Shown: positions 1 to 64,000 of the stretch, piece after piece | How the letters are laid out: the number at the start of each line of letters is the position of its first letter | How positions within the stretch are numbered: position 1 is the stretch's first letter | DNA from: Xestospongia bergquistia | Lineage: Eukaryota > Porifera > Demospongiae > Haplosclerida > Petrosiidae | Direction of reading: 5' to 3' | NCBI GenBank assembly: GCA_963965975.1 | Contig: OZ014412.1 | Location: 808,501-872,500, forward strand | Length of the DNA: 64,000 nt | Position numbers and translations under genes: made by a program | The notes under the pieces: model-generated | Told to the model about the DNA's origin: nothing | What the model saw: the letters and a program-made list of their open reading frames with translations, nothing else | Database searches by the model: none

Positions 1-728
1 TAGCTTACCTCCAATATGATAATATTGTTGTGATGTTCCCTCTCCCTCTCCTACAATATTAACTGCTACTACTATTAGCTCATATCTCTGACATGATATA
101 AAGTTGAGATGACACAATGATATATTAGTAGATGTTGAGTTAGTAGTATAATTGACTACATTTAATTTAGTGTCTATAACAGACACAATATAATGTAGTA
201 TATCTACTCCATCAAGTGTTGGAGGTGGTAACCAACTTAACCATTTGGTAGATATATTGAAATAGAGTTTATTCACAGCTGTTAATAACCCTATATCATG
301 ATAACTAATTGTTCTATGTTATAATAATATTGTTACCTTGAACTTTGAGAAATATTTTATTTGAAATAGTTAGTTGTGGTGTATATACTGTAGCTCTAAT
401 CCCAGCATTGTTATATTTTGGTGATGAAGTAATGACAAGATCAGATCTGATACTACCATTTGTAAGTGTAGTTTGATAAACAGATACATTAACAGACTGA
501 TAGGTAGGTATGTACACCAAATTATTCACAGTCCAATACACTGATCCACTACAGGCAATAGTTGTAAAGTTTACAATAGATCCTTCACTGGTATTTAAAG
601 AGGATGGTTGTAGTAAAAAGGGACACCCATGAACAACTGAGAGACCAGAGACTATATATAATGATATTAAAGACCTATTTAAAAGTAAATACAAACTAAC
701 TTATTATCAACAATATTGTCAACTCCAT
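1..728 (-). CDS. A0: family A Ig-FN3 receptor, 5' part only
   Basis: This is the 5' end of a type I membrane receptor gene that continues past the left edge of the window. The signal-peptide exon begins at 728 (MELTILLII) and ends at a GTTAGT donor. The Ig-like exon covers about 345-650 and reads through HGCPFLLQP, a cysteine after NFTTIA and several N-glycosylation sites. The FN3-like exon runs from about 265 to 9 and ends in a GTAAG donor at the window edge; its core contains WLPPPTLDGVDILHY. The upstream sequence at 700-900 closely matches that of A2, so A0 and A2 share a promoter type. The TM segment and tail are outside the window. The family assignment is firm by comparison with A1-A3; the function is unknown. 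Confidence 0.75.
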
Positions 729-862
729 TGTTTATATACAGCAACTCAATCACACACTTAATAATCATGAAGTAAAGCTCCTTTCTCTTCAATTGCAAAT
801 GTCTCTCAAAAGCTAAACTGAGCTATACCATATATAGGTTTTATAATAACAAAACTAGATAA

Positions 863-875
863 GTTGCTATGCAAT
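863..875. promoter_or_regulatory. X-box-like palindrome upstream of A0
   Basis: GTTGCTATGCAAT is an imperfect palindrome about 135 bp upstream of the A0 start. It resembles the RFX X-box (GTTGC...GCAAC). Perfect GTTGC-TAT-GCAAC versions occur at 2685-2697 and 11230-11242 next to A-type remnants. In each case a GATGAGACCCACC-like or GATCCACCC sequence follows. The role is inferred from motif and position only. Confidence 0.3.
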
Positions 876-1049
876 TAAGATGAGACCCACCTTCCTTCTG
901 TTTTATGTAAACAACTCACAGTTGTTACATAGCAAGTCTTTAACAGCTAATGTAGAAGAATGAGAAAATGAAGAAGAAAAGTCATAAAAGAGGTTATGGC
1001 TTTACTTAGATCTAGTACATTTATTTGACTAAAAAACTGCAGATAATTG

Positions 1050-2820: not shown

Positions 2821-5607
2821 TCAAGATAAACTTTCTTTATCAGTTACTGCTGCTTGTGTTAAAGTTGGTGGTTCTAAGGCATCATGTATTTGTGGTACTG
2901 TAGAAAGTACTTGATATATTGGCAAGAAAAATACTGGAGTAGTAGGACTGCCAGGTATAGTAGGTGTTAATAGAAAAGGAGATATTGGAGGAGATGACTG
3001 TATATTAAATACAGGAAGTGATAGAGTTTTAGGAAGTGCCTTAGAACGAGGTATAATCTGATGATTTTGTGGTAAATCTACTGGTAGATTTTTAAGACAG
3101 TCCTCAAATGAATCTTCCTTGATACTATTTTGATCATTTTCATCATTATTAACCTGTTAAAGAGATTTAAGTATTATAGAATGTGTAATAAACTTTACCA
3201 TATCATTTATCTCGGTGTCTTCAATAGTGGTAGCTTCTGGTAGAGCAGGAAGTAATGCTATAGCAGGTGTTATTGGTTCAGGTATAGCCTGTACTAACTG
3301 GACTCTAAAATTACAAGACATTCCAGACAAAGGCATATTGCTATTGAAATTTGTTGACAATTACTGTATGCACATGTGTAGTGTAATAATAATTACATAC
3401 TTTGTATCCAAAATTTGTTCTTCATTATTAACACACACTATATACTGAGATGACGTTTGGAAATATCCTATAAAATATATTGGAATAGTTATTAATTCTT
3501 TAGTGCTAAAATGACAACATTGTTTATTAGTTATATTATGTGTACTTACTTTGACAAATATAATAGAGAAGAAGTATTATTGCAACAATAATAAATAATA
3601 CAATAATTAACAACACAGCAACAGCAATTAATAACTTCTAATCTATATTCAAAACAATTCTTAGAATAACAAATAATAAAATTTACCTTTAAATGGAGAA
3701 AATGAATTGGGAGATTGTGTTGGAATATCTAGTAAATATTATAAGCTATAGATAATAGATATGATTACATGTATTTACCAGTAGATGAAGGAAGTAAACT
3801 TATAGTGGGTAAAGAAGACAGTGTAGGAGATACCCCTAATAATAATAATAATTATCAATTATACACTCATTATAATAACTGATCGTACCTTTTGGTATAT
3901 GAGGAGCTGGTGGTAATATCAATATTCCAACAACAGCTGGTAATACAGAAATCAGAGTATGAACTTGAAGACCAAATGCCCTCCAATGAGAATTGTTCAT
4001 AACATGTTCAATGGCAAAACACTTTATAATGTTCACTTCATGTCTTTGTCTTGAGATATTTAGTTGTAGAGTTATACCATTATTACTACTGGGTATAAGA
4101 ACAACACAACCAGTAACATTTGAACCATATGTAAAATGACAGGTCACACATAATTTACCAAAGTCATTTATTATGTCTATAACCACATTTTGTAGATCAA
4201 AAGAACCTAAATAATGATATAGTTTATTATAAAATATTGCTGACTCAGTTATAAAAGTCCCTGGGAAAATCCCATATGAATATTGTTAAGAGGACACTGT
4301 GTACTACATGTTATACTTACTGAGTATTGTTGATGTTATAGTGACACACCCACCAATGTACAATATGAAACATTGGTAATAAAATGTATATCCTTTGGTA
4401 TTATTATCATATCATCACTCAAGTCTATCAACTGTGGTAATGATAGTACTGGAATGACATAGACTTTGTTAGAATCTATATCAGTCAAGTTGATAAATAC
4501 ATTATCTGGGTAACATCCAGGACAAAGGGGATGATCCTATTATAGGAGTAATAATTATTAATATTACATTTTATTTATTGGAATACCTGTGTATCAAGTA
4601 GTTCTGCTGTAATAGATAGACACGCTTTTCTCTTTTTACAAATCAAAGTTCTTAGTTCTGACCATCCTATTTGTGTCACTACAAAACATGCATTATATCA
4701 AATTGTGAACATTATCACTTACCATTTGGTATAACTATAATACAACTTGATGATTTCCCAATACCACCATTATTAAAAGAGGTCACATTAATGATATATT
4801 CTCTGAACAGATCAATATTGATAGAGTTATTAATAGTTATATTATATGATGTTCCATCAGTTGTAATAGGATATGCTAGACCCTCAGCTTCAATAATATA
4901 ATGAGTTAAAGTTCCATACAAAGTTATGGGAGCAATAAAAGTAACATGTACTGTGTTCTTTTTCACAAAATGACAAGTCAGATTACTCACATGATCTGGA
5001 GGTCCTACACATGAACATGTAACTTATAAATATCATATGTTTCTATATATGGTAGTATTACTTACCTTGTACTCTTAATATAGCTATGTCAGAATAAGTT
5101 GGAAAACTCTCTTCTAAAGCTAGAAATTGTATTTCCTTGTCATCATAAGACAATGGAATATCAGTCAATGTGAACACTGCTTTGATATAACTGCTATTGA
5201 TGTCATATTGTGGAGGATAGAACTGGTATGGTTTTATCAGAGACACACTACTACAGTTAGCAGTAATCACAGTGAATATCACAGTGGAATGTGTTGTAGT
5301 ATTCACTGATAAAGGTTGTAGATCTACTATAAATCCTAAATATAGTTATAGAATATCTAGTATAAGACTTTGAAGAGTTACTATAAAATATAATATAATG
5401 AACATGTCAAAGTGTAGCTAGTTTTAAAATACATAACTGCTACATATGCAGACTATGGAGACAAAACTTACTACAGTGAGGTGATGGCTCCACAAAGAAG
5501 TCAGGTGTATAACGTATTAGCACTATATTGGGAGCACCAGTCACAATAGATTGTCCTTTAAAGAGAAGACAAAACAAAACTGTAGCGATTATATATAGTA
5601 TCTTCAT
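2821..5607 (-). CDS. B1: family B Ig-FN3 receptor, with a frameshift
   Basis: Type I membrane receptor of family B. Translation starts at 5607 with a clear signal peptide (MKILYIIATVLFCLLF); exon 1 ends at 5472 with GTAAGT. The Ig-like exon is about 5063-5335, FN3-like about 4722-5010, and linker exons about 4590-4680 and 4330-4545. The membrane-proximal exon is about 3890-4215 with CVTCHFTYGSN..GC. The TM exon is about 3555-3645. Tail exons run down to the stop at 2821-2823, with proline- and serine-rich sequence and the C-terminus DKESLS. Compared with B2 and B3, one T is missing near 4368 in the linker exon, which shifts the frame and gives an early stop. B1 is therefore either a recent pseudogene or carries a sequence error. 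The start is about 207 bp downstream of the A1 stop. Confidence 0.75.
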
Positions 5608-5814
5608 TTTACCTGTCGATATAATACCTACCATATAGAATACAATACCCGCGATTTATAAACAACTTATAATAATATTCATAGCTACTATGAATAATTA
5701 TACCATACAGGACAAGTGGATTTATTGCACCACTTTTTATGGTCTTAATACATGTAGTATTATTAACAGGATAATTGATATCCTATATTTTGACAATATA
5801 TATATTAATCAATA

Positions 5815-8800
5815 GTTATAATATTTCCATAGTCATCAGTACATGTTCTACTAGGCCTAGGTTGTACTGTTATATATGATGGATTACTCTCTAACTTCAT
5901 TCTTCTATTTCTCATATCAAGTCTATATACTGTAATATAATGATATCATATATAAACAATAATATGTAGTACATACCTTCCTCATATGCAGGATTATCAG
6001 TAATAGCTCGTTGATCAACTACAATATAGTTATATATATATAGTTCATTATTGTTCATACTATTACCTTCAACCTCATATTGTTGAGTTAGTTTCTTTCT
6101 CAAATATACAATAATACTAGTGACAATCACTATTATAGTAATAATAATTATTACTATAATGATTGTACTAGTAATACTAAGTAAAAGAATATTATCATTG
6201 GTAGCTGTGTATTACAAATAAATAATTTATATCATATAATAGTACTTACATGATATCATAATATTAGTTGACACAGATGTCAATATTATACTAGTAGTAC
6301 TAGTAATATCAATGAACTCCTGTAGTGTTGATATAGACACAGTATCTATATACAACATAAACTAGATGACATAATCATAGTAGATTATGATATATATGCC
6401 ATTTATCAACGTATATAAGGTCAACTAATAACAAATAATATAACTCATATATAGTTAACTTTTAATACAATGTATGCTAACTTTCCAACCTGTCTCAATA
6501 CTAATACTGTTAACAACAGGAGGGAGTATGTTAGTGATATTAACAGTCTTCCAGAGCTCTGTCATTACTGATAGCACATGATAATCATTATTTCTCATAC
6601 ACACATTAATTCACAATATATAATGTACTATTATATATAATATACTACTCACAGTACAATGTACTACATATTGTTAATCAATGAATATATAATAATGATT
6701 GTATAACAAATGTATACCTGTAATAGTAATAACACTATCAGTAGGTGAAGGAAAGGATGTTGCCATGACAACAGATGTTGGTATTCCTATATAACTTAGT
6801 TGACATAGTACTACTCTATAAGATGCTGTTATTACTCTCTAGTAATAACTGACAATGCATGATGGTCATTTCTCACAATTATCAAGTGTTATGTACTATA
6901 CAGTGTATAATATACTGCACATGTAAGCTAATGATAACATAACAAATGTGTGTTCACTAACTTGTGTCAACTGGCATAGTACTACTATCAACATGAGGAG
7001 GTGGTAATAGAATAAAATCATCAACAATAGTGATGTTTGCTGTCTCCCTAAACTCTGTAGATATTGTATAATCTCTCTCCCAGTCATGTATTGTGATATT
7101 ATACTCATCAACAGGAAGTGATAGACAGTATGTAGTGTTATCATGATCATAAGGTACATTAACTTCATATATAGAGAGAGTTTTATAAGACATAGCTTTG
7201 ATATTAAATCCTTTAGCATCTGTCACAGTAACATATGTTACATTAACACACACACTACCAGCTACTGTATAGATAATAGCATCTTTAATATCAAAGGTCC
7301 CTATCAGATAATTAAATAATTATTAATAATTATAAGAGGAGAACTTACAGAATTCAAATTCTTGTGAACTAGCCATATCTCCTGTTAATGTATTAACAAT
7401 GAGTTGTCCCATACAATGTGAATTAGAAGGTAGATTATTTGCTATATAGATACCAATAATAGTATCATTTCCTTCATCAGACACTTTAGTATCATTAACA
7501 TGTTCAATACTGTTGTATTTGTAGTCAGTATTGTGAGATAAGTCTTTAGTTTTAGATGTAATATTAACTGGTTTTTGATCTTTACAATCATATGTAACCT
7601 GAATATATATAGTTATCACATAATATCTTTTTTAAATTACAACTTCAAACCTTATAAGTAATGTTAGTACTAATGTTGCCATCACTACTTACAGCTACAT
7701 TAAGAACTTCAACTCCAGGTACTGTTATATATAAAAAGGAAAATGCAAAGAAAATACACAATGTAGTGTGAGATATTCTAGAGCAATATCTTACTTCCAA
7801 TATGATAATAATGGTGTGATGTTCCCTCTCCCTCTCCTACAATATTAACTGCTACTACTATTAGCTCATATCTCTGACATGATATAAAGTTGAGATGACT
7901 CAATGATATATTAGTAGATGTTGAGTTAGTAGTATAACTGACTACATTTAATTTAGTGTCTATAACAGACACAATATAATGTAGTATATCTACTCCATCA
8001 AGTGTTGGAGGTGGTAACCAACTCAACCATTTAGAAGATATATTGAAAATAAGGTTCTTCACAGACTTTAATAATCCTACACATTTATATCTTAATAATA
8101 TAGTTGATATTGTATGAACATTCATACCTTGTACTTTAAGGATTACTTCATTTGATAAAACAGGTTGTGGATTATATACTGTAGCTCTAATCTCAGCATT
8201 GCTATATTTTGGTGATGAAGTAATGACAAGATTAGATTTGATACTACCATTTGTAAGTGTACTTTGATAAACTGATATATTTACAGACTGATAACCAGGT
8301 ATGTAAACGAAATTATTAATGGTCCAATACAACGATCCACTACAGACAATTGCTGTAAAGTTGACAGTAGATCCTTCACTGGTATTTAAAGACTTTGGTT
8401 GTAGCAAGAAGGGACAACCATGAACAACAGAGATAGTAGAGGCTATATAAAGAACATAGAAATATGAGGTAGTATTCATGACTACCGTAAGGGTATAAAT
8501 TTTCGTGGGGGATTTAATTTCGCTGTATTCGTGGGTTGTTGTTTTATCAAGAAATCTAACTTTTGTTCCACCCACGCATAATCACGCAAAGGGATTCGTG
8601 TTGGTCACTTCTTTCTCTTTTACACTGTCTGAAGTACTTCTCCGTCAACTGCCTCCCAGATTTTCTTGTATATATGGTACCCTCTCACCATGGATTTATA
8701 GGAATAGGTAGCCATATTTCGCGAAAATCACGCCTGTGATCACAACACGTGCCAGATACCACACCCATTATTAATACTTCACACCCACTAAACACGAAAA

Positions 8801-11374: not shown

Positions 11375-14141
11375 TCATGATAAACTTTCTTTATCAGTTA
11401 CTGCTGCTTGTGTTAAAGTTGGTGGTTCTAAGACATCATGTATTTGTGGTACTATAGAAAGTATTTGATACTTGTAAGGAAAATACTGGAGTAGTAGGAC
11501 TGCCAGGAATAGTAGGTGTTAATAGAAAAGGAGATACTGGAGGAGATGACTGTGTATTAAATACAGGAAGTGATAGAGTTTTAGGAAGTGCCTTAGAACG
11601 AGGTATAATCTGATAATTTTGTGGTAAATCTCCTGGTAGATTTTTAAGACAGTCCTCAAATGAGTCTTCCTTGATACTATTTTGATCATTTTCATTATTA
11701 TTAACCTGTAAAGAGATCTAAGTATTATAGAATGTATAATAAAGTTTACCATATCATTTATCTGAGTGTCTTTAGTAGTGGTAGCTTCTGGTAGAGCAGG
11801 AAGTAATGCTATAGCAGGTGTTATTGGTTCAGGTATAGCCTGTACTAACTGAAGTCCAACATTAGAAGACATTCCAGACAAAGGCATATTGCTATTGTAA
11901 TTTATTAACAATTACTGTATGCACATGTGTAGCATAATAATAATTACATACTTTGTATCCAAAATTTGTTCTTCATTATTAACACACACTATATACTGAG
12001 ATGACGTTTGGAAATATCCTATAAAATATATTGGAATAGTTATTAATTCTTTAGTGCTAAAATGACAACATTGTTTATGTGTACTTACTTTGACAAATAT
12101 AATAGAGAAGAAGTATTATTATTGCAACAATAATAAACAATACAATAATTAACAACACAGCAACAGCAATTAATAACTTCCAATCTATATTCAAAACAAT
12201 TCTTAGAATAACAAATAATAAAATTTACCTTTAAATGGAGAAAATGAATTGGGAGATTGTGTTGGAATATCTAGTAAATATTATAATCTATAGATAATAG
12301 ATATGATTACATGTATTTACCAGTAGATGAAGGAAGTAAACTTATAGTGGGTGAAGAAGACAGTGTAGGAGATACCCCTAATAATAATATCAATTATACA
12401 CTCATTATAATAACTGATCGTACCTTTTGGTATATGAGGAGCTGCTGGTAATATCAATATTCCAACAACAGCTGGTAATACAGAAATCAGAGTATGTATG
12501 ATCTTGAAGACCAAATGCCCTCCAATGAGAATTGTTCATAACATGTTTAATGGCAAAACACTTCATAATGTTCACTACATGTCTTTGTCTTGAGATATTT
12601 AGTTGTAGAGTTATACCATTATTACTACTGGGTATAAAAATGACACAACCAGTAGCATTTGAGCCATAGGTAAAATAACAGGTCACACATAATTTACTAA
12701 AGTCATTTATTATGTCTATAACCACATTTTGTAGATCAAAAGAACCTAAATAATGATATAGTTTATTATAAAATATTGCTGACTCAGTTATAAAAGTCCC
12801 TGGGAAAATCCCATATGAATATTGTTAAGAGGACACTGTGTACTACATGTTATACTTACTGAGTATTGTTGATGTTATAGCGACACATCCACCAATGTTA
12901 CAATATGAAACATTGGCAATAAAATGTATATCCTTTGGTATTATTATCATATCATATCTCAAGTCTATAGACTGTGGTAGTGATAATACTGGAATGACAT
13001 AGACTTTGTTAGAATCTATATCAGTCAAGTTGATAAATACATTATCTGGGTAACATCCAGGACAAAGTGGATGATCCTATTATAGGAGTAATAATTATTA
13101 ATATTACATTTTATTTATTGGAATACCTGTGTATTAAGTAGTTCTGCTGTAATAGATAGACATGCTTTTCCTTTTTACAAATCCAAGTGCTTAGTTCTGA
13201 CCATGCTATTTGTGTCACTACAAAACATGTATTATATCAAATTGTGAACATTATCACTTACCATTTGGTATAACTATAATACAACTTGATGATTTCCCAA
13301 TACCACCATTATTAAATGAGGTCACATTAATGATATATTCTCTGAACAGATCAATATTGATAGAGTTATTAATAGTTATATTGTATGATGTTCCATCAGT
13401 TGTAATAGGATATATTAGACCCTCAGCTTCAATAATATAATGAGTTAAAGTTCCATCCAAAGTTATGGGAGCAATAAAAGTAACATGTACTATGTTCTTT
13501 TTCACAAAATGACAAGTCAGATTATTCACATGATCTGGAGGTCCTACACATGAACAAGTCACTTATAAATATCATGTGTTCCTATATATGGTAGTATTAC
13601 TTACCTTGTACTCTTAATATAGCTATGTCAGAATAAGCTGGATAACTCTCTTCTAAAGCTAGAAATTGTATTTCCTTGCCATCATAAGACAATGGAATAT
13701 CAGTCAATGTGAACACTGCTTTGATATAACTGCTATTGATGTCATATTGTGGAGGATAGAACTGGTATGGTTTTATCAGAGACACACTACTACAGTTAGC
13801 AGTAATCACAGTGAATATCACAGTGGAATGTGTTGTAGTATTCACTGATAAAGGTTGTACTATAAATCCTAATGTAGTTAAAGAATATCTAGTATAAGAC
13901 TTTGAAGAGTTACTATAAAATATAATATAATTAACATGTCAAAGTGTAGCTAGTTTTAAAACGCAAAAAACTGCTACATATGCAGACTATGGAGACAAAA
14001 CTTACTACAGTGAGGTGATGGCTCCACAAAGAAGTCAGGTGTATAACGTATTAGCACTATATTTGGAGCACCAATCACAATAGATTGTCGTTTAAAGAGA
14101 AGACAAAACAAAACTGTAGCGACTGTATATAGTATCTTCAT
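11375..14141 (-). CDS. B2: family B Ig-FN3 receptor, with a frameshift
   Basis: Close paralogue of B1 and B3. The signal peptide starts at 14141 (MKILYTVATVLFCLLF). The Ig-like exon is about 13.60-13.87 kb and FN3-like about 13.26-13.55 kb. Linker exons are about 13.13-13.22 and 12.86-13.08 kb. The membrane-proximal exon is about 12.41-12.75 kb (CVTCYFTYGSNATGC). The TM exon (about 12.10-12.19 kb) is a clean Leu/Ile/Val helix flanked by DWK and YYICQ. The tail ends in DKESLS with its stop at 11375-11377. One A/T pair is missing near 13171 (a K-K-R run in B3 becomes out of frame), so the linker exon shifts frame. The lesion differs from that in B1, so the two copies decayed independently or contain separate errors. 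Confidence 0.75.
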
Positions 14142-14339: not shown

Positions 14340-16661
14340 TTAATCAATAGTTATAATATTTTCATAGTCAGCAGTACATGTCCTACTAGGATGTACTGTT
14401 ATATATGATGGATTAGTCTTTAACTCCACTCTTCTACTTCTTATTTCAAGTCTATGTACTGTAATATAATCATATCATATATGAACAATAATATGTAGTA
14501 CATACCTTCCTCATATGCAGGATTATCAGTAATAACTTGTTGATCAACTACAATATAGTTATATAGTTCATTATTGTTCATACTATTACCTCCAATCTCA
14601 TATTGTTGAGTTAGTTTCTTTCTCAAATATACAATAACACTAGTGACAATCACTATTATAGCAATAATAATTATTACTATAATGATTGTACTAGTAATAC
14701 TAAGTAAAAGAATATTATCATTGGTAGCTGTGTATTAAAAATAAATAATTTATATGATATAATAGTACTTACATGATATCATAATAATAGTTGACACAGA
14801 TGTTGATACAGATGTTAATACGGACATAGTATCTATATACAACATGTCATAATCATAGTAGAGTATGATAGGACATCTATTAATGTATATAAGGTTGACT
14901 AATAACAACATACTATTAACAACAGATGGGAGTATGATAGTGATGTTAGCAGTCTTCTGTCATTAATGATAGCACATGATAATCATTATTTCTCATGCAT
15001 ACATTAATTCATAATATATAATGTACTATATAATATACTACTCACAGTACAATGTACTACATACTGTTAATCAATGTATATATAAGATAACAGATATATT
15101 GTTCACTAACTTGTGTCAACTGGCATGGTAGTACTATCAACATGAGGAGGTGGTAATAGAATAACATCATCAATAACAGTGATGTTTGCTGTTTCCCTAA
15201 ACTCTGTAGATATTGTATAATCTCTCTCCCAGTCATGTATTGTGATATTATACTCATCAACAGGAAGTGATAGACAGTATGTAGTGTTATCATGATCATA
15301 AGGTACATTAACTTCAAATATATCTAGAGTTTTATAAGACATAGCTTTGATATTAAATCCTTTAGCATCTGTCACAGTAACATATGTTACATTAACACAC
15401 ACACTACCAGCTACTGTATAGATAATGGCATCTTTAATATCAAAGGTCCCTATCAGATAATTAAATGATAATTAGTAATTATAAGAGGAGAACTTACAGA
15501 ATTCAAACTCTTGTGAGCTAGCTTCATATGTTAATGCATTATAATCGAGTTGACCCATACAATGTGAATTATTAGGTAGATTATCAACTAAATAGATACC
15601 AATAATAGTATCATTGCCATTATCAACTAGTATAGTGTTGTTAAATTGTTCATGGCTGTAGTATTTGTAGTCAATGTTGTCAGTTAAGTCTTTAATTCTA
15701 GCTGAAATATTAACTGGTCTTTGCTCTCGACAGTTATATGACACCTGAATATATGCAGTTATCACATAACATTATTAATTTTTAATTTCAAACCTTATAA
15801 GTAATGTTAGCATTCACATTGCCATCACTACTTATAATTACATTAAGATTTTCTACTCCAGGTACTGTTATATAGAAACAAGGAAAATGTAAAGAAAATA
15901 TACAAAATAATGTGAAACACTCTGGAATAAATAGCTTACCTCCAATATAATAATATTGTTGTGATGTTCCTTCTCCCTCTCCTACAATATTAACTGGTAC
16001 TACTATTAGCTCATATCTCTGACATGATATAAAGTTGATATGACTCAATGATATATTAGTAGATGTTGAATTAGTAGTATAATTGACTACATTTAATTTA
16101 GTGTCTATAACAGACACAATATAATGTAGTATATCTACTCCATCAAGTGTTGGAGGTGGTAACCAATTTAACCATTTGGTAGATATAGTGAAGTAGATTT
16201 TATTCACAGCTGTTAATAACCCTATAATATAAAGAGTAATTGTTCTATGTTATGATAATATTGTTACCTTGAATTTTGAGGAATACTTTATTTGAAGTAG
16301 TTAGTTGTGGTATATATACTGTGGCAGTAATCTCAGCATTGTTATATTTTGGTGATGAAGTAATGACAAGATCAGATCTGATACTACCATTTGTAAGTGT
16401 AATTTGATAAACTGATATATTAACAGACTGATAACCAGGTATGTATGGAACATAATTAATAGCCCAATACACTGATCCACTACAGACAATAGTTGTAAAA
16501 TTGACAACAGATCCTTCACTGGTGTTTAAAGAATTTGGTTGAAGTAAGAAGGGACACCCATGAACAACAGAGATAGCAGAGACTATACATATAATGATAT
16601 TAGAGATTTATTTAACAGCTAATTCAAACTTACTTATTATCAGCAACATTGCCAACTCCAT
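14340..16661 (-). CDS. A2: family A Ig-FN3 type I membrane receptor
   Basis: Apparently intact. Exon 1 begins at 16661 (MELAMLLII) and splices to ISAISVVHGCPFLLQP, giving a good signal peptide. The Ig exon is about 16.27-16.59 kb, FN3 about 15.94-16.22 kb, and a short linker about 15.79-15.87 kb. Further ectodomain exons are about 15.50-15.75 and 15.12-15.45 kb. A Ser/Thr/Val stalk exon lies at about 14.77-14.85 kb, TM at about 14.57-14.73 kb, then tail exons. The tail keeps both NPxY motifs (DNPAYEEG, TNPSYITV) and ADYENI, and ends at 14340-14342. A2 is shorter than A1 because one stalk exon is missing. B2 starts about 198 bp downstream. Function is unknown; tyrosine-based signalling is inferred. 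Confidence 0.8.
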
Positions 16662-17041: not shown

Positions 17042-17971
17042 TTATACCAGGAGCGCATGAGCATCGCAAAGCGACGAGAAGGAGCGTCAAACTCCCTTCA
17101 CCAACATATGTAACATATTCACCAACATATAGAACATATGTCCATATATGGACATAACTGCAAAGTGTTTTGCATTTTAATAGCTTCTGGGCTGTAACCT
17201 CTTAGTTAGTCACTTAGGTGTACTTTAAATAGATAAAATTTAAGAGAAGTCAAGAAGCGACTTTCTGAAGACATGGAAGTCCCTGCTACACGAAAACAGC
17301 GGCTTACTCTGTCAATGGACCCAAGAATGGCTGAACAAATGGGACATTTCAGGCTTACTGTTGGCAAACCTGGGACTTACTCAGGCCCATGTATTATGGC
17401 TTTAAGAACTCGTGTCACTTCTGCTCACCCTGGGTACACAATATATCCAGTACATCTCAATGGTATTGCAGTTGAGACTTTCTTTAGCCAGGTCAAGCAT
17501 GCCATCTCAGGCCAATTATCATCACTGAACTATGCTATTGCCAGAGGTGCAGTAATAACTCTTTATATAAAAACATGATTTGAAACATAAACCATACAAG
17601 TAGTAAATGTTCATTCTATTAATAATGTTATAATATCAGATAATATTATCCATCATAGCAAAAAGGAGGTTTTAATAACAGGTAAATAAAGATATATGCT
17701 GTTCAACTGTTTCCACCTCTTTAATGACAAAAGCCTCCATAAACTACCAGTCTAATTCTTTTAAACGTTTCTCGATGTACATAACTTCTTTCTTTTTTAG
17801 TTTTTTTTCACCGTGATAGTTGTAATAATATTCATTGCTCCGTCACGTACTTAAAAGTACTTATGCTACTTAAGTGTATTTTCCTTATATGGAATAATCC
17901 ATGGCTGCGTTTCGACAATGGTTAGAATACAAATATAATGGCAGTTTGACGCTCATGCGCTCCTGGTTATA
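17042..17971. mobile_element. 920-bp TIR transposon with TTATA duplication
   Basis: Inverted ends CCAGGAGCGCATGAGC lie at 17047-17062 and, as the reverse complement, at 17951-17966. Both are flanked by TTATA (17042-17046 and 17967-17971), consistent with a 5-bp target duplication. The similarity of the ends continues into GCGTCAAACT after a roughly 25-bp insertion in the left arm. The base composition is more GC-rich at the ends than the surrounding DNA. The interior contains a short coding remnant on the plus strand. The superfamily cannot be assigned from these features. Confidence 0.75.
17273..17578 (+). CDS. Possible transposase-derived 3' remnant
   Basis: A 101-residue frame inside the 920-bp TIR element, starting at MEVPATRKQR and ending in IARGAVITLYIKT. 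Its composition is less AT-biased than the neighbourhood. The C-terminal part (HLNGIAVETFFSQVK then LSSLNYAIARGA) has the look of a transposase C-terminal segment. I cannot name the family. Length and location suggest a deletion derivative that is not autonomous. Confidence 0.45.
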   Translation: MEVPATRKQRLTLSMDPRMAEQMGHFRLTVGKPGTYSGPCIMALRTRVTSAHPGYTIYPVHLNGIAVETFFSQVKHAISGQLSSLNYAIARGAVITLYIKT

Positions 17972-18199: not shown

Positions 18200-20952
18200 T
18201 CACAATACACTTTCTTTATCAGTTACTTGTGATAAAGTTGGTGGTTCTAAGGCTTCATGTGATACTTGTGGTAGTATCTCATAAAACAAAAATACTGGAC
18301 CAGTAGGATTACCAGCAGTAATAGGTGTTAATGGAAAAGGAGATACTGGAGGAGATGACTGTGTATTGAATATAGGAAGTGATAGAGATTTTAAAGGTGG
18401 TTTAGATTGAGGTATGATGTAATAATTTTGTGGTAAATCTCCTGGCAGACTTTTAAGAATGTCATCAATTGGATCTTCCTTGTTGTTATTTTGATCATCC
18501 TCCTCATTATTAATCTGTATAGATAAATGTCTACACAGTTCATATTATTATGTGTTAACTCACCATACTGTTAGTCTGAGTGTCTTCAGTAATAGTTATG
18601 TTATTAGTAGGTTCTAGTGGAGCAGGTACAAACACTACAGTAGATGGCATTGGTTGCTGTACTAACTGAACTCCAGGAGACATTTCAGAAATATTACCAC
18701 TAATACTATATCGTTAATAATAATAATAATCACATAACAATCACATACTTTGTCTCAGAGCATTCTTCACTACTAGTACATATATCATACTGAGATGACT
18801 TCTGAAAACACCCTATATATATGATAGGAATATACTTTAGTGCTGCAATGATAACATTGTTAGTATCATACCTTGATTTGTACAGTAGAGGATGAGAACT
18901 ATTAGCATTACAATAATAATTAATACAATAATTATAAACACAACAGCAATAGCAATAACAAATAGCTTCCATTCTATATTTTAGAATATTTTTAGATTAT
19001 TGGCATGCTATAATATTTACTGTTAAATAGAGAGAATGGATTAGTCCGTGAATTGGGAGATTGTGTTGGATTATCTAATAAACAATATAGTATATATATA
19101 ATAGATATGATTATGTGTATTTACCAGTAAATGAAGGAAATAAACTTATAGTGGGTGATGAAGACAGTGTAGGAGATACCCCTAATAATAATATCAATTA
19201 TATACTCATTATAATAACTGATCATACCTTTTGGTATGGGAGGAGCTATTGGTAATATCAATATTCCAACAACAGCTGGTACTCTAGAAATCAGAGTATG
19301 ATCTTGAAGACCAAATGCCCTCCAGTGAGAATTGTTCATAACATGTTCAATAGGAAAACACTTTATAATGTTCAGTACATGTCTTTGTCTTGAGATATTT
19401 AGTTGTAAAGTTATACCATTATTACTACTGGGTATAAGAACAACACAACCAGTAGCATTTGAACCATATGTAAAATGACAGGTCACGCATAATTTACCAA
19501 AGTCATTTATTATGTCTATAACCACATTTTGTAGATCAAAAGAACCTAAATAATGATATAGTTTATTATAAAATATTGCTGACTCAGTTATAAAAGTCCC
19601 TGGGAAAATCCCATATGAATATTGTTAAGAGGACACACATGTACTACAAATGTACATGTTATACTTACTGAGTATTGTTGATGTTATAGCGACACATCCA
19701 CCAATGTTACAATATGAAACATTGGCAATAAAATGTATATCCTTTGGTATTACTATCATATCATTTCTCAAGTCTATAGACTGTGGTAGTGATAATAATG
19801 AAATAACATAGACTTTGTTAGAATCTATATCAGTCAAGTTGATAAATACATTATCTGGGTAACATCCAGGACAAAGCGGATGATCCTATTATAGGAGTAA
19901 TAATTATTAATATTAAATTTTATTTATTGGAATACCTGTGTATCAAGTAGTTCTGCTGTAATAGATAGACATGCTTTTCTCTTTTTACAATTCCAAGTGC
20001 TTAGTTCTGACCATGCTATTTGTGTCACTACAAAACATGTATTATATCAAATTGTGAACATTATCACTTACCATTTGGTATAACTATAATACAACTTGAT
20101 GATTTCCCAATACCACCATTATTAAATGAGGTCACATTAATGATATATTCTCTGAACAGATCAATATTGATAGAGTTATTAATAGTGATATTGTATGATG
20201 TTTCATCAGTTGTAATAGGATATGCTAGACCCTCAGCTTCAATAATATAATGAGTTAAAGTTCCATCCAAAGTTATGGGAGCAATAAAAGTAACATGTAC
20301 TGTGTTCTTTTTCACAAAATGACAAGTCAGATTACTCACATGATCTGGAGGTCCTACACATGAACATGTCATTTATAAATACTATATGTTTCTATATATG
20401 GTAGTACTACTTACCTTGTACTCTTAATATAGCTATGTCAGAATAAGCTGGAAAACTCTCTTCTAAAGCTAGAAATTGTATTTCCTTGCCATCATAAGAC
20501 AATGGAATATCAGTCAATGTGAACACTGCTTTGATATAACTGCTATTGATGTCATATTGTGGAGGATAGAACTGGTATGGTTTTATCAGAGACACACTAC
20601 TACAGTTAGCAGTAATCACAGTGAACGTCACAGTGGAATGTGTTGTAGTATTCACTGATAAAGGTTGTACTATAAATCCTAAATATAGTTATAGAATATC
20701 TAGTATAAGACTTTGAAGAGTTACTATAAAATATAATATAATTAACATGTCAAAGTGTAGCTAGTTTTAAAACGCAAAAAACTGCTACATATGCAGACTA
20801 TGGAGACAAAACTTACTACAGTGAGGTGATGGCTCCACAAAGAAGTCAGGTGTATAACGTATTAGCACTATATTTGGAGCACCAATCACAATAGATTGTC
20901 GTTTAAAGAGAAGACAAAACAAAACTATAGCGACTATATATAGTATCTTCAT
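18200..20952 (-). CDS. B3: family B Ig-FN3 receptor, apparently intact
   Basis: The only family B copy in which I find no frameshift. The signal peptide starts at 20952 (MKILYIVAIVLFCLLF-like). The Ig-like exon is about 20.41-20.68 kb (TANCSSVSLIKPY) and FN3-like about 20.07-20.36 kb (GPPDHVSNLTCHF). Linker exons are about 19.94-20.03 kb and 19.66-19.89 kb (NVSYCNIGGCVAIT). The membrane-proximal exon is about 19.23-19.56 kb with CVTCHFTYGSNATGC. The TM exon is about 18.90-18.97 kb. The proline-rich tail ends DKESVL, with its stop at 18200-18202. The TM sequence and tail differ more from B1/B2 than the ectodomain does. The start is about 199 bp downstream of A3. Confidence 0.8.
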
Positions 20953-31111: not shown

Positions 31112-31142
31112 AGTTTGTTTGTTATTCATACAATAGTTATTA

Positions 31143-45461: not shown

Positions 45462-47998
45462 ATGGCTCCAGTACTCACTACAATATGCTGCTTCCTCTAC
45501 ATAGCAATGTCCTGGCAATTTACAGAAGCTGCTCTTGCAGGTACATATTATATATTTTATTATTGCAATAAGAGAATTGAACATTTGCTGCAGAGTTTGT
45601 TGAAAAACCAACTTCAGTTAATACTACTCAAGGCTCCATAGCAGAATTCAATTGTACTGGATATTCTCAAGGATTTCATTGGGTGATTAATAATAGACTA
45701 TCAGATCATGATGATAATTCACATCGTGGTTTAGAAGAGATTAATGAAGTAGTAAATTCTGCTACTAATTTAAATATACATATTTTGCGAGTACCAGCAG
45801 AACCAAAAAATAATGGAGTTAACATAACATGTGTAATTTATAATTTTCTGAATGTTCCCAGTGATCTTGTTTACCTATACATTCAAGGTATGTTTATTTA
45901 ATACAATGTAATAATTTCCTATATAGGTTTGAAAGTTAACATTTAGGCTACTTTGATTTGGAATAAAAAGAAACATGATTTCAATCAACAATTATTGTTA
46001 CATTTCTTGTATACTATACATAGCTATCATAACATGTAGTAAGCAACTGTTTACTCTCCTTTAGGTTTATTGAGTGAAGTAACTGATGTTCATTTAACTC
46101 AAGTCAACAGTACTACTGTACAGTTATCATATAGTTCTCCTCCTACTTTAATGGGTGTCCCTATATTAAACTATTCTATTGAATTATTCTCATCATCTAA
46201 TAACTTAACATCAGAGATATATTGGACAACAGAGGAGACAATACTAGTGACATTAAATAATCCTTGTATTAACTATTCACTACAAATATCAGCTTGGAAC
46301 AATGTAGGTAAAGGGAATATTACTACATTACCACTGATACTATATCAAGGTTAGTATTAGTTATAAGTAGGTGGATGTGGTAATTTAGGTAAATTACCTC
46401 TTCTCTTTCATCTTATTATTACTAGTCCCCACACCTCCTCCTCTTAACACTACTCTCGAGTTTATATCTGATAATAACTATATTGATGTGTCTGTAGAGA
46501 GTATAGTAAGTATATTAACTAGTATATTATATATTATATTAAATTAATAATATATTAATATTGAGCTATTGATCTTAAACTGTTTAGATTAGTGCTAGCT
46601 GTGTTGGAAGGGTTCCAGATAATGTCACAATATCACTGGTTTCAGTGTATACAGTAACATGTCAGTTATCTATTAATGGTAGTGATTGTAATGAAGTAAC
46701 AATATCAATACTTAATGAGAAGAGATGGTTGATACATGTTAATATATCAGATCATGTAGTACCACAAAGACATTATCAAATACATCTAATGTTTGGAAAT
46801 AAAGCTGGTATAACACCAATGTCAACAGCAATGATCAGTGAGTGAGACATTTAATAGATTATTTTTAATTGTTTATTTTATTAGGTACATTTCAAACACA
46901 GAGAGCTACAATTGAAGATAGTAATGATTATGTATGTATTAACTGTTATTTTGCTGAAGGTTCAACATCATCTGGTTGTCATGGTATCTTTGTTGATATC
47001 CATGAAGTATTACATAACCAAACATTTACTGTACCAAGAAGCAAAAGATCTCCTAATTTTGGACATAACTGTGAGGTGTTGTTATCAGGTGAATATCTTG
47101 TACTGATCTTTGATAGAGATAAGAGTAGTTATATTGAAAATGAAATAGCATTAAAACTGAGTGCTATTGTAAGCCATCAACTAGAAACTACAACAATCAA
47201 GACATTATCTTCCTTTATTGGTAAGTAGTTGTATTATCACTGTGTATGTTAGTAATGTTGTTATTATATTGTTGTTGAGTCGTTGTTATTGTTCCCTCAA
47301 CAGATACTAGTACATCATCACAGTTAATAACACCTGTTGTCACTACAACAATAGAACCTTCTAGTCAAAGTAGTACTAATGATATATCTTTATTACTTAT
47401 TATATTATTTGTTACTGGAGGAGTACTTAACAAGTATTATTGTTATATCATTAGTGGGTTGTTTAATACGTACTAAGAAAAAGAACAAGAGATTAAAAAT
47501 ATGTAAGAACAATAACTTATCAAAGTCCATTTGGTTTGACTTCAACGATTGATTTTAACTATAAGTTCTTTTTGACAACCTTCCATTATAAATACATGTA
47601 CATATGTATTATCTCCCATAGTATATCACTTGTGTTTGCAAAGTCAAACGAAATGAAATTCAAATGGATGGATGGATAGACAGTTTGACTGGATGGTTAA
47701 ATTAATGGATGATCTGACAAACACACAATTAATGGATTAAGTATATTATATTCTCTATTTTAATAATCCAGCTATGTTGTCAGCACTTGTTGGCCAAAGA
47801 CATGCAGAGTTGTTCCGGAACACATTATCAGATGGTGCATCATCTCCCCTACCTCCTAGGACTCCTACCACACAACAGATACCAGATCCAATGTATGACA
47901 ATATGGAGGAGATCCAGTTTAGATCTACTAATAGACAGGCTGTAGAGCTTCAAGATTGTCCAGCTTATACTAAATTACCACTACAATCAACAAAATAA
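45462..47998 (+). CDS. D2: family D receptor with frameshifted TM segment
   Basis: Start at 45462 (MAPVLTTICCFLYIAMSW). The Ig exon (about 45.59-45.89 kb) keeps C..W..C (FNCTGYSQGFHWVINN, NITCVIYN) but differs from D1 at roughly 40% of positions. From the FN3 exon (46065-46350) onward it is nearly identical to D1, including the linker, middle and membrane-proximal exons. In the TM exon, near 47425, a 5-nt deletion relative to D1 changes the frame after FVTGGVL and ends translation at GLFNTY. The downstream tail exon (about 47.77-48.00 kb) is still present with LPPRTP, PMYDNM and PAYTKL. As read, D2 would have a shortened membrane anchor and no signalling tail. It could be a decoy receptor, a pseudogene or a sequence error. 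Confidence 0.75.
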
Positions 47999-53131: not shown

Positions 53132-53910
53132 ATGGCTGTTACTACAATATACTGCGTTCTCTTTACAGTAATGTGCTGGACATATACGGCAGTTATGTTT
53201 GCAGGTATAAATAAATTGAATTATTTGTATTTTTTAGACTTTGTCAAAAAACCAATATCAGTAAATGCCAGTTAAGTTTCAATAGCAATGTTCAATTGTA
53301 CTGGATACTCTCAGAGTTTTCATTGGTTGGTTAATAATAGATTACCAGAACACAAAGAAAATGAAAATCATAGTTTAAAAAATATTAACATAACAGTAGA
53401 TCCTGCTACTAACTTAAAGATACATCTTTTACTGATACCAGCTGAACCAAAGAATGATGGAGTTAACATTAAATGTTTGATTTATAATATTTCAGGGAAT
53501 TCACCAGCTGTTGTAAGTGATTTTGTATACCTTCATGTACAAGGTATGTTACTAATTTACACTAGATATATATATATATCAACAAGTATATAACAGTTGA
53601 TAGTTTTCAATTTGGAAGTTATGTTCACATAAAATTTAAAAATAAATCCTATGAACATTCTAGTCCTAACCACTATTGCTGAGATCATTTTTTACTGTAT
53701 CAGTTGTCACTACAACAATAGAACCTTCTGGTCAAAGTAATACTAATGATATATCTTTATTACTTATTATATTATTAATTTTGTTACTGGAGGAGAACTG
53801 GAGGAGAGCTATTATTAACAAGTACTATTGTTATATCATTAGTGGGTTGTTTAATACATACTAAGAAAAACAACAAGAGATTAAAAATATGTAAGAACAA
53901 TAATTATACT
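53132..53910 (+). pseudogene. D3: family D receptor with nonsense codon and internal deletion
   Basis: The signal-peptide exon at 53132 (MAVTTIYCVLFTVMCW) is intact. The Ig exon (about 53.24-53.54 kb) is close to D1 but has TAA at 53273-53275 where D1 has a glutamine codon. All exons from FN3 to the membrane-proximal domain are missing. The sequence jumps, at about 53.69 kb, to the end of the TM exon (VVTTTIEPSGQSNTND). That exon carries a duplication of GGAGGAGA-type sequence and the same out-of-frame GLFNTY ending as D2. No tail exon follows. Confidence 0.8.
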
Positions 53911-59029: not shown

Positions 59030-59480
59030 ATATTTTATGTATCGTTGTTAAAAAACAACCATTGTAAATGTCAGTGAAGGATCAATAGCAGTGTTCAATG
59101 TAATGGATACTTTTAATGTTTTAATTGGTTGGCAAATAATAAACTACAAGAACATCCTGATAACTCAGATCATGAACAAAAACTTAATATAGCTGTAAAT
59201 CTTGTTACTAAGCTAAAAATGTATCTTTTACTAGTGCCAGCTGAGCTAAAGAGTGACAGAGTTACTCCATAATATGTTTTATTAATACAATTAACACAGT
59301 CTGTTTCCAGTGATGATGTTGTTTACCTCTATGTTCAAGGTACAGTTACTGAATACAAATATTTGAGACATGATATTTCATTAATGGAGCTGACCCATAT
59401 AGGTTTATTGAGTGAAGTAACTGATGTTCATTAAACTCAAGTCAACAGTACTACTATACAGTTATTATAGTATATATTTA
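59030..59480 (+). pseudogene. Degraded family D gene opposite E2
   Basis: Pieces of a D-type Ig exon (GSIAVFN, then an N-W-L-A-N-N-K run) lie at about 59.05-59.34 kb with frame breaks. The start of a D-type FN3 exon (LLSEVTDVH) is at about 59.40 kb, followed at once by TAA. No signal-peptide exon is recognisable. GCCACACCTC at 58928-58937 marks the former shared promoter with E2. Confidence 0.65.

Positions 59481-60747: not shown

Positions 60748-60786
<39 letters not shown>
60748..60786. repeat. TA microsatellite
   Basis: About 19 TA units in non-coding sequence between the E2-type tail remnant and the unknown exon at 61 kb. Confidence 0.9.
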
Positions 60787-60790
<4 letters not shown>

Positions 60791-60955: not shown

Positions 60956-61512
60956 TCAATGATTGCATAGTCTCCTGCCTTCAATTATAAATAAATGATA
61001 TTGGTCAAGTGGAAAAGTACAGGTCACAGTAATGGAGTTGCCTTCTCTAATACTCTTTATGGTGATCTTCTTATTCAATCCTTCTAGGAAGATATGAGAC
61101 ATCAGATTTATGATATCTTTTAATGTGCAATTGTCAGGGTCCCAATCAAGGACTGCAGTAATGGTATCATCATCTTTAAGAGGAGGAGATATTGTTACTG
61201 AAAGTGTACGTGTTTCCCCTATAGAGTTACAAACAGACACAGATTGCCAAACTCCTCTAAAGTTTTATTGTAAGATTCAATATATTCTTGAGCTCCTTCT
61301 GTATTTAATTGCATCACTATTGTCTCAAGATAATTGACATCAAGTATTGTACACTTGTCTTGAATGATATTCAACATATCACTGACAGCTTTACAATGAG
61401 ATAAGGAAGGCCTTAAAGAAGTATCATGTTCTTTCAGTGCCTTTCTTATATCTTCCAATAAAGGTGGATCATTTTCAATTATGCTTTTGATGGTGTTAAA
61501 ATCTTTCTAAAC
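60956..61512 (-). pseudogene. Unrecognised ~180-residue module with one frameshift
   Basis: An exon begins after a TTTAG acceptor at about 61512. It reads a helical, Lys/Glu/Leu-rich segment (DFNTIKSIIENDPPLLEDIR, SLSHCKAVSDMLNIIQDK). Near 61235 the frame changes, and the second half continues with SVCNSIGETRTLSVTI, LDWDPDNCTLKDIINLM and EGNSITVTCTFPLDQYH. The two halves overlap with no splice signals at the join, so a 1-nt indel is likely. I do not recognise the family. It is not an Ig, FN3 or TM exon. A related exon start is seen on the plus strand at 43.97 kb. An E2-type tail remnant lies downstream. Confidence 0.4.
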
Positions 61513-61619
61513 TTATTTCTAATATCAGAAGTTGTATTTTTACATAAATCTATAATTAATGTAAATAGATAATTAATAAAGTGATAGTTATAAAACACAA
61601 CCATTAAACAAAAGGAATT

Positions 61620-62341
61620 GTAATACATCTTTAATCTAAAATATAAATTTTATACATCTTTAAATATATAGTAGTTTACATTCTTGATCAAGTATACTTC
61701 AAATATCACTTCAATTTAATTATAATTAAAGAGAATACAAATCATCTAGACAGATTTAATTAATGATGATCAATATTAGATAGATATGATATGTAAAAGA
61801 AAATTTATTGGTATAATAAAGATTGTTGTATCATAAACTTAATATTTAGTAATAATTGTAATTTTCAGGTGTAACACCTTAACAAGCATCCAGCCTTCAT
61901 CAATCCTCACTACTAACACAACCCTCTATAAAAATATTTAAATTACTTCAACAATTAAGGAAGGTCAGATTTAGGGTTAATAATTGAAGATTTGTCATTG
62001 ATTCCAGCTAGTGACTTCTTATCAGAGCTAAACAACCTTATTACATATTATGGAAACTCAATTAATTAGTGCCAAACTATTTAAATAATTATACTTATAT
62101 TGTACTGTTTTAGAAATAGTAGTCACAATAAGTGGTCCATGTGGATGATACAATTTCATGATGATTGTCGCTTCTAAGGTAGTCTGTTCTTTTTATATGA
62201 ATAATACATAACAATTTCATAATTAAAATGCAATGTCAACGTAAAAATATAATTGTATTATATAAAAGTTATTGCTGGGTATAGAGCTAAAAATATAATA
62301 TAATTTAATAAGTAAAGATTATTGTGTCTAGAAATAATTAC
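61620..62341. other. Shortened third copy of the D-E intergenic region
   Basis: The first part (61.66-61.80 kb) resembles D 3' flanking sequence near 37.13-37.25 and 49.43-49.55 kb. The last part (62.2-62.34 kb) resembles the 3' flank of E1 and C3. The middle is deleted or too diverged. No gene is seen. Confidence 0.5.
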
Positions 62342-64000
62342 TCAGAAAACAATATCTCCTTTCTTTCCTGTGTCCTCAGCTGGTTGACCTGCATCTTCAT
62401 CTTTTACAATTACAACATTATTATCACCTGTTGTAACAGGATTCTCTGATTTATCACCACCAATAGCTTCAGCACACTCTAATTCTGGATTCTACAGATA
62501 GACATAAAGAAGCTGGTTACTGAGCAATAGCTAACAATTTATATATTATTTACATTATTTAATGTAGTTGATACTCCACAAACACATGAGATGTTGTAAT
62601 GATAATTGAAATATAACTGGTTACATAATTAATAACAAAGTTTAAAGCAATTGTAATGGTAATGGTAATTGGGTAATTAATTATGTAATTAATTTGGAAT
62701 TTTTTGGCTCTAATGGTAATTGTAATGCTATAATTGGGTAATTGTTTCATGGTTTGGTGAAATTAATGGTAATGGGTAAGGGCAATGAGGTAACCATTAA
62801 GTAATAGTAATTGTAAATCATTACATGATAAAGTAATTAACAACATCCCTACATTAGCTGATAAAGGATGAGGACAAATGACCACATGTTACTTACAGTA
62901 GATGATACATTATCATTTTGAGATTCTCTTTCACTCTAAAAAAATAATAGTATAAAATATAATTATAATATTATTATATAATTTGTGATGTACTTTAGCT
63001 GCTCTTGTTTCTCTTTGTTCTGGATGACTAGATACAACATACGATGACTGACTACCAGCAAGATCTGTAGTGGTGGCAGTTTCTGGTACACTATAATCAT
63101 GGCTCTACATTATAATAAACAATAAAGACAGAGAGTGTGTATACCACATTTACTGGTGCTGTTGTATCTTCTTCAATATAAGTAAATGATGTTATAGTTG
63201 TTTCATTGGGTAACTGAGTGGAAACTTGCGAGGAGTCCTATCAAAATAATATTTTACAACATTAGATTGAAATATTATTGAAAAGAACTTTCATTTGCTA
63301 AAAGTGTTACCATATTTTCTTGTTCATCAGGAGCTGCACTAGATTTTGATGTTACTAATTGAGAAGTAGCATTAAGGTTTGTTGTTCCATTGGAATATGA
63401 TGCTCTCTATGTAATTAATATAAGATATTCATTGAAGAGATTAAAAAAACTAACTAGAATCACAGGTTCAGCATCATCATTACTACTACCAGTCTCTAAA
63501 GTCTGAAAAAACTCAATTGTAATAATAATAATAATGTTAAAATGTTTTACTTGATGATCGCTGTTCTGTTGTGATGATTGGATCAAAAATAATTCTAATA
63601 CTTCATTATATTTGATTAATAAAACATACCTGATTAATAGGTATACTATTGTCTTGGTTGTGGTATTGTATAGTAGATGATGGAGGTGGTACTATCACCT
63701 ATAATTCAAAGATGATGTCACCATGATGTCATAAATGATCTTACAATGCTACGAGAAACACGATCATCTTCAGGTTGATGTATTTCTGAACTAGATGATA
63801 CAAGGACAAACACATATATTATAGAGGCACATAGATTGATAGATATTAAAGAAAAAGTTTAAAAAAGCATAAAGTATAATAAGATACATAATAATAATAA
63901 CAGACTATATACTAGATATATGTCTGACTCATGATTGTGTGTGTCTGCTTCATAACTGATATAGTCTACATTGTTATTAGATAATTCATTATTATTATGA
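62342..64000 (-). CDS. E3: tail of an E-type receptor, 5' part beyond window
   Basis: The cytoplasmic-tail exons match E1 in order. They are the terminal exon with AGQPAEDTGKKGDIVF-type ending and its stop at 62342-62344, exons at about 62.90-63.10 kb, 63.15-63.24 kb, 63.32-63.41 kb and 63.46-63.50 kb, and the exon pair at 63.65-63.78 kb (VIVPPPSSTIQYHNQD region, then EDDRVS). The TA tract of E1 at 39.76 kb is absent here, and the TAATGGTAAT array is kept at 62.65-62.83 kb. I find no TM exon at 63.80-64.00 kb, where E1 would have one, so the 5' part either lies beyond the edge or is missing. Confidence 0.6.

Follow-up and report, generated by a model that had tools for sequence, protein, structure and literature searches.

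A putative self/non-self recognition-receptor complex with mosaic genes on one contig of the sponge Xestospongia bergquistia

The window examined here, a stretch of 64,000 nucleotides at positions 808501-872500 of contig C2 in the genome of the sponge X. bergquistia, carries receptor genes of four related subfamilies, of which A, B and C lie on the minus strand and D lies on the plus strand. Contig C2 makes up 16.1 of the 146.5 Mb of the genome, which is assembled in 21 contigs, and the GC content across the window is 27-34%. The exon order common to all four subfamilies comprises a signal peptide, an immunoglobulin (Ig)-like exon, a fibronectin type III (FN3) exon, the exons D3a, D3b and D4, a transmembrane (TM) exon and a tail. 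Introns between domains are in phase 1, and a phase-0 intron splits D3, an additional extracellular domain. Genes were called from exon-sized open reading frames (ORFs) and splice signals, together with tblastn searches with exon translations and a small exon chainer.

An earlier note, made from the sequence alone, had described the window as a 64-kb cluster made almost only of Ig-FN3 receptors in four subfamilies, with intact and damaged copies side by side. The four subfamilies and their shared domain order are borne out, and seven open models (A2, A3, B3, C1, C3, C4 and D1) are interspersed with five that carry lesions (A4, B1, B2, the C2 gene and D2) as well as with partial copies. In the domain plan that the note proposed, the signal peptide, FN3, TM and tail exons stand; the Ig-like exon is weakly supported, and D3 has been added. 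The description as 'almost only' receptors must be relaxed to accommodate two ORFs, X1 and X2, and two elements with inverted ends. In addition, the cluster continues well beyond the window.

The stretch at 1-23.8 kb of the window holds A and B genes, all on the minus strand and arranged head-to-tail in alternating order. The first, A1 (1-700), is cut by the window edge, leaving the Ig-like (335-649) and FN3 (7-291) exons inside and further exons at C2:806.9-808.4 kb. It is followed by B1 (2821-5607), which is frameshifted by a 1-bp deletion in the D3b exon, and by A2 (5805-8479), an open model of 587 aa whose tail carries NPAY and NPSY. B2 (11436-14141) has a 4-bp insertion in its D4 exon and another insertion in its last tail exon. 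The open A3 model (14340-16661, 546 aa) illustrates the exon plan, with the signal peptide at 16661-16634, Ig-like exon at 16582-16268, FN3 at 16221-15940, D3a at 15864-15794, D3b at 15744-15498, D4 at 15449-15111, TM at 14727-14590 and the tail extending to 14340. B3 (18200-20952) is also open, encodes 656 aa and ends in an acidic and proline-rich tail, and A4 (21152-23834) is frameshifted by a 1-bp deletion in the Ig-like exon and a 2-bp deletion in D4.

Over 24-64 kb, C genes on the minus strand are arranged head-to-head with D genes on the plus strand. C1 (C834; 24056-27289) is an open model of 793 aa with a head of lineage 2, as defined below, and faces a D-type Ig exon fragment (27530-27767). 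The C2 gene (C841; 29006-34263) has a damaged Ig exon, and its FN3 exon contains a stop. Its Ig exon, the promoter region and the Ig exon of D1 together form a head block at 33839-34809, in which the signal-peptide starts of the two genes are separated by about 116 bp. D1 (34379-36957) is open, with its signal peptide at 34379-34451, Ig-like exon at 34502-34807, FN3 at 34994-35278, D3 at 35346-35751, D4 at 35799-36134, TM at 36218-36418 and a tail at 36731-36957 that includes PPLPPR, YDNM and PAYTKL. Its signal-peptide exon was picked by hand, as the exon chainer started at 34468 and split the FN3 exon.

The remaining C and D units show the same mixture of open and damaged copies. C3 (C850; 38517-42564) is open, with 713 aa and a head of lineage 1. 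D2 (45462-47998) carries a 5-bp deletion in its TM exon and encodes an FN3 domain identical in protein sequence to that of D1, next to an Ig-like domain only 64% identical. C861 (52576-52908) is a C-type Ig exon of lineage 2 that lacks FN3 to D4 and is directly followed downstream by sequence resembling the C3 tail region; its partner is a D-type Ig exon with an in-frame stop (53237-53545). C4 (C866; 55792-58921) is open, has a head of lineage 1 and a long acidic tail without a long match to other C tails, and lies head-to-head with a D-type fragment (59099-59464) containing part of Ig and FN3. The arrays grow by tandem duplication and decay, and the tandem arrangement of intact, broken and chimeric copies is that of a clustered birth-and-death complex, as the earlier note had proposed.

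The second domain is firmly assigned to FN3 by sequence comparison. The Pfam fn3 model recognizes D2 above its cut-off (E = 7e-7) and B3 (3e-5) and C4 (4e-4) below it, with no fn3 match for A3 and C1, and a profile of 12 window FN3 exons matches titin, NCAM2, contactins, Dscam and other FN3 proteins (FN3 structures). For the head exon, the case for an Ig-like domain is weak but consistent. Nearly all of the best 60 of 128 matches of an Ig-exon profile to the PDB are antibody light chains (best E = 0.004), the sole Ig-type Pfam line in the five models scanned is Ig_GEX2_N for A3 (E = 0.3), and the Cys/Trp/Cys pattern is present in type D only, since A is missing the second Cys and B and C are missing the Trp. 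Neither D3 nor D4 gave a family match in the scans made. AlphaFold models of 10 window D4 exons have seven strands (mean predicted local distance difference test score, pLDDT, 69.9; predicted template modelling score, pTM, 0.67), and the modelled fold of this membrane-proximal domain is consistent with an Ig/FN3-type sandwich. A D4 sequence search produced one fibronectin match (E = 0.8). A common origin of Ig and D4 was also considered, and profile comparison gave it no support.

A tblastn search of the whole genome locates at least 255 distinct D4-like loci on contig C2 and at least seven elsewhere, a count that is the union of several queries and takes in fragments as well as weak matches with identities as low as about 23%. 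Along contig C2, there are 70 loci at 0.43-0.98 Mb, nine at 0.98-1.83 Mb, 18 at 1.83-2.43 Mb, 156 at 2.70-4.36 Mb and two at 10.7 Mb, and those on other contigs comprise five on C9, one on C14 and one decayed locus on C1. With D4 from a gene at 3.56 Mb, 147 of the 150 places scored, out of 355 candidates, are on contig C2, and queries from 0.53 Mb find at least 134 places for D4 (130 on contig C2) and at least 84 for Ig (82 on contig C2). In the whole-genome search, close relatives of A extend over C2:761-832 kb and close relatives of D over C2:843-945 kb, beyond which lie distant relatives of Ig and D4. C-type loci occur at C2:834-944 kb, 2.03 Mb and 2.19-2.42 Mb, with one decayed copy on C1. 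Profiles of the window FN3 and D4 exons also match genes at 0.53, 3.55, 3.58, 3.72 and 4.0 Mb of contig C2. In one of the more distant genes, L031 (C2:528-538 kb), the FN3-D3 block occurs twice (Ig-FN3-D3-FN3-D3-D4) and the tail is a proline-rich repeat.

Divergence differs sharply between neighbouring exons of the same genes. Among near full-length exons from copies in C2:698.5-962.5 kb, the median synonymous divergence (dS) for D is 0.58 in Ig, 0.03 in FN3 and 0.14 in D4; for C it is 0.67 in Ig, 0.05 in FN3, 0.07 in D3b and 0.43 in D4; and for A it is 0.35 in Ig, 0.10 in FN3, 0.29 in D3b and 0.16 in D4. Thus, medians differ by up to about 19-fold. The exons at 53237-53545 and 33220-33495 were excluded from the alignments for stop codons, and the best match was retained where several overlapped in the 264 kb of joined sequence around the window. 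In pairwise tests with the six C, five D and six A genes that have usable Ig and FN3 exons (C841, C884, C892 and C912 were left out), 39 of 40 gene pairs have a higher dS for Ig than for FN3 (C 14/15, D 10/10, A 15/15). The difference reaches Fisher p < 0.001 in 21 of these 40 non-independent pairs (nine C, seven D and five A). The contrast recurs in a distal array, where it holds for all six comparable pairs; an FN3 counterpart was available for six of the 10 Ig pairs, and the FN3 exon of L032 and the D4 exon of L035 were left out.

Three comparisons of D genes show 30-81% identity as far as the intron that precedes FN3, and 86-100% over the stretch that runs from FN3 to the TM exon. The breakpoint is the intron before FN3, and windows across the next introns are 86-97% identical. 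Because the high identity of the D core includes intron windows, it reflects homogenization and not only protein constraint. Copies have nearly identical FN3-centred cores while their heads persist as discrete lineages. The C heads fall into five such lineages, with 85-99% identity within and 56-73% between them, and the FN3-D3b cores of the same genes are 88-98% alike.

For head lineages 2 and 3, the C Ig exon, the promoter and the D Ig exon align contiguously in four of four pairs. The head blocks align over 1282 bp at 85.5% for P841/P861, 997 bp at 81.7% for P834/P841 and 1003 bp at 80.5% for P834/P861, and P873/P884 align over 2.6 kb at 78% and 2.2 kb at 87%. Between lineages, it is mostly the Ig exons alone that align (67-75%), with exceptions. 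Approximately unbiased (AU) tests, which require groups named beforehand and were here applied to groups chosen after viewing the identity table, reject a head-1 clade with both the core (p = 0.021) and D4 (5.7e-4), head 2 with D4 (5.9e-4) and head 3 with the core (0.015), and the Ig tree rejects the D4 pair 841+850 (1.7e-6).

Tails vary as well. When the 2.5-kb regions 3' of D4 in C genes were compared by blastn, 30 of 36 pairs had no match; matches of some length exist for 850-873 (1.9 kb, about 75%) and 929-943 (0.7 kb), and four further pairs have matches of 73-261 bp. Since most C tails are unrelated, head 1 is joined to three or more different tails, and a single tail is shared by heads 1 and 3. 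The heads, cores and tails of C genes have exchanged partners. In addition, the proline-rich tail of C892 resembles that of a gene at 0.53 Mb.

These mosaics could in principle be created by an assembly artefact in which haplotypes placed in tandem give false paralogues, and some copies are indeed very close, such as C929 and C943 with 99% identity in Ig. However, two haplotypes could not yield the five head lineages and at least six tail types seen among eleven C units, lesions differ from copy to copy, and 264 kb around the window are joined without N, so that we regard this explanation as very improbable.

The tails themselves are of several types: A tails carry NPAY and NPSY, D tails carry PPLPPR, YDNM and PAYTKL, and B and most C tails are acidic or proline-rich. 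In six window tails, one per type, the motif PxYxx(hydrophobic) is enriched (5 observed and 0.44 expected, p = 0.0002), as is YxxPhi (11 and 6.1, p = 0.028). The larger tail set gives 31 YxxPhi motifs against 16.3 expected but includes near-identical paralogues, and the one-per-type count is therefore preferred. The tails of models A3, B3 and C1 and the 3' regions of C884 and C892 contain no catalytic domain (C4 and D2 entered the Pfam scan without tails), and a receptor tyrosine kinase or phosphatase was accordingly rejected for the tails scanned. The 3' region of C884 appears helical by eye, with sub-threshold Pfam lines only and no PDB match. Far from the window, the L032 gene (C2:4.0 Mb; positions 7367-8097 of that locus) encodes a tyrosine-rich tail with YSTV, EEYARL, MYSTL and SQYSTL.

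We consider the window to be probably a slice of a diversified, chromosome-scale complex of single-pass self/non-self recognition receptors with membrane-distal Ig-like heads, judging from its sequence organization. Gene conversion would keep the cores alike, the heads would bind cell-surface ligands, and the varied tails, with tyrosine motifs or with proline-rich or acidic stretches, would feed different outputs. The complex would then serve as a receptor repertoire for distinguishing self from other, whether the latter are allogeneic cells or microbes. A more specific version, which we consider quite unlikely, is a histocompatibility-like chromosome with more than 250 receptor loci, on which a head pair and its promoter are inherited as a block, stalks are homogenized by conversion, and new head-tail combinations arise as heads move from stalk to stalk and onto unrelated signalling tails. 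The head-to-head pair might in that case be a linked receptor pair, or a receptor and its ligand.

Several observations count against the proposal of a recognition complex. The gene models were built by a home-made exon chainer without transcripts, and some neighbouring copies that are nearly identical may be haplotypes placed wrongly. At no cut-off does Pfam recognize the Ig-like exon of the five gene models scanned. The window Ig profile matches the 0.53-Mb genes only and not those at 3.5-4.0 Mb, where the exon before FN3 was called Ig from its Cys/Trp/Cys pattern and has no Pfam match. None of the six lineage-1 pairs extends its alignment into a D Ig exon; their D partners are missing, reduced to fragments or 3 kb distant. 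Moreover, P850 belongs to lineage 1 by its C head, but its promoter sequence and D head are shared with P873 and P884, both of lineage 3. The head block thus does not always stay intact. Head 2 forms a clade in the core tree, D4 does not reject head 3 (p = 0.33), and the tails of C834 and C841 have a common piece at the protein level (44%). In the six window tails, the immunoreceptor tyrosine-based inhibitory motif (ITIM) is not above chance (2 observed, 1.65 expected), and the strict form of the corresponding activation motif (ITAM) is absent from all 15 tails of the larger set. The ITIM count in those 15 tails (9 against 4.3, p = 0.025) is due to C892 and L032, both outside the window, and on these motif counts an ITAM/ITIM receptor label was rejected for the window tails.

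The substitution pattern also belongs among these points. Allorecognition would predict a ratio of nonsynonymous to synonymous divergence (dN/dS) above 1 on the Ig exon, which is absent in A, C and D: median values are 0.35, 0.51 and 0.38, respectively, and dN exceeds dS in none of 15 A, 28 C or 15 D pairs. By ratio of sums, FN3 exceeds Ig in A (0.55 vs 0.35) and C (0.94 vs 0.49), and in C FN3, where divergence is very small, dN exceeds dS for 13 of the 28 pairs. In the distal array, Ig dN/dS is nearer 1 and exceeds it in one of 10 Ig pairs. The B value for Ig of 2.6 by ratio of sums comes from three pairs with a median dS of only 0.008. Positive selection on the heads was therefore set aside as unsupported, with A, C and D medians spanning 0.35-0.51. 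The birth-and-death pattern that the earlier note likened to the Hydractinia Alr cluster is clear from the lesioned copies, fragments, head lineages and exchange of heads and tails.

The same ratios, with head values below 1 and no excess over the core, would suit ordinary adhesion proteins that were tandemly duplicated, with gene conversion as a neutral by-product of the tandem layout. Ig-FN3 is a common adhesion architecture, and tandem duplication has been reported for a sponge genome, as indicated by the portion of PMC7385117 consulted. However, neutral conversion does not predict heads with a dS of 0.35-0.67 beside cores with 0.03-0.10 in three subfamilies, nor does it predict unrelated tails on the same ectodomain, and we consider this explanation unlikely. 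The window FN3 profile does match the FN3 domains of Dscam, contactin, RPTP and NCAM, which have longer Ig and FN3 arrays and, in RPTP, enzyme domains. The window proteins differ in having one Ig-like domain, one FN3 domain, and D3 and D4 domains without a Pfam match.

Known receptor systems offer points of comparison. Vertebrate paired receptors (KIR, LILR and SIRP) place one ectodomain type on different tails, lie in tandem clusters and undergo gene conversion, and the genes described here resemble them in the first two respects and presumably also in the third. Unlike them, the window genes have no ITIM excess or strict ITAM in their tails and possess an FN3-D3-D4 stalk. The Hydractinia Alr complex is also a cluster of single-pass receptors, there of the Ig superfamily, which includes pseudogenes and whose members share little identity, according to the sections of PMC11067881 and PMC11999971 used here. 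These sections give 41 Alr loci, in contrast to the far larger number of D4-like loci on contig C2. The sponge genes further differ from Alr in the FN3-D3-D4 stalk, the head-to-head C/D pairs and the homogenized core. By analogy, the complex may work like Alr or like vertebrate paired receptors, the likeness drawn being one of pattern.

Receptors for microbes or symbionts, diversified by foreign ligands and not by allogeneic cells, constitute a serious possibility that falls somewhat short of probable. Hundreds of loci exceed the 22 genes that the consulted part of PMC13119343 gives for the Podocoryna allorecognition complex and the 41 given for Hydractinia. Large NLR and SRCR expansions are described for sponges (PMC12909245 and PMC10855680), and the gene at 4.0 Mb combines its tyrosine-rich tail with a weak Pfam Death match (E = 0.012) that is below its cut-off and is accompanied by no death-domain structure match by sequence. 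Conversely, no known microbial ligand domain was found, and microbe sensing does not require head-to-head coupling of two heads.

To our knowledge, the genes behind the graft-response system of sponges have not been established. A single-chromosome complex with variable heads, homogenized cores and swapped tails is a concrete, testable candidate for sponge recognition genes. If this is true, one of the oldest animal lineages would have evolved, perhaps independently, recognition receptors that are paired and switch tails; even with microbial ligands, the modular evolution is unusual and readable from sequence alone. Sponge aggregation factors, the other self/non-self candidate, are secreted proteoglycan-type proteins with Calx-beta/Wreath domains, and no Calx-beta or Wreath Pfam match is present in the five models scanned. 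A polymorphic aggregation factor is cited in the portion of PMC5450542 used here, which also describes sponge graft responses as specific and repeatable, pointing to a polymorphic genetic system. In other work on sponges, the parts consulted describe expansions of SRCR or NLR genes or tandem expansions in general, and not the complex seen here (PMC4772301, PMC12909245 and PMC7385117); PMC4772301 mentions, within that part, SRCR-like domains found in association with FN3 and Ig domains. Among the matches listed from the Creative Commons-licensed PubMed Central literature, none describes a sponge receptor complex of the Ig-FN3 type, which is a weak negative.

The remaining features of the window lie between or at the edges of these genes. 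Modelled tail exons of C873 occupy 61900-63790 on the minus strand, and the corresponding ectodomain is just outside the window (C2:873.1-875.0 kb). The non-Ig ORFs X1/X2 (60965-61500, minus strand) have a copy 3' of C884 at C2:881.7-882.2 kb (75-80% identity in protein), and the module, which lies downstream of C-type genes, may belong to C884 as tail exons or be a gene of its own. Both ORFs look helical by eye, and their Pfam lines are all sub-threshold. An element of about 0.9 kb between A3 and A4 (17046-17967) has 20-bp ends that are 95% complementary and includes a plus-strand ORF of 113 aa with no Pfam match. The tail region of C841 holds the second element (30103-32067, about 2 kb), which has long arms that are 82-89% complementary. 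A tRNA search of the window found none.

Elsewhere in the genome, other dense clusters of FN3 exons are located at C5:0.27-0.77 Mb, C7:3.17-3.33 Mb, C10:0.97-1.07 and 4.95-5.33 Mb, C8:1.2 Mb and C2:8.0 Mb, and the exons at C5:326-337 kb are spaced in regular steps of about 450 bp. The best 150 places of this genome-wide search for FN3 clusters include no window locus. The COI gene on contig C21 carries nine in-frame TGA codons, read as Trp as in mitochondrial code 4, and its protein appears demosponge-like, in keeping with a host that is probably a demosponge. Six COX1 pieces at C6:3.15-3.20 Mb, several with TAA or TAG stops, lie on a contig of nuclear size and are likely nuclear copies of mitochondrial DNA.

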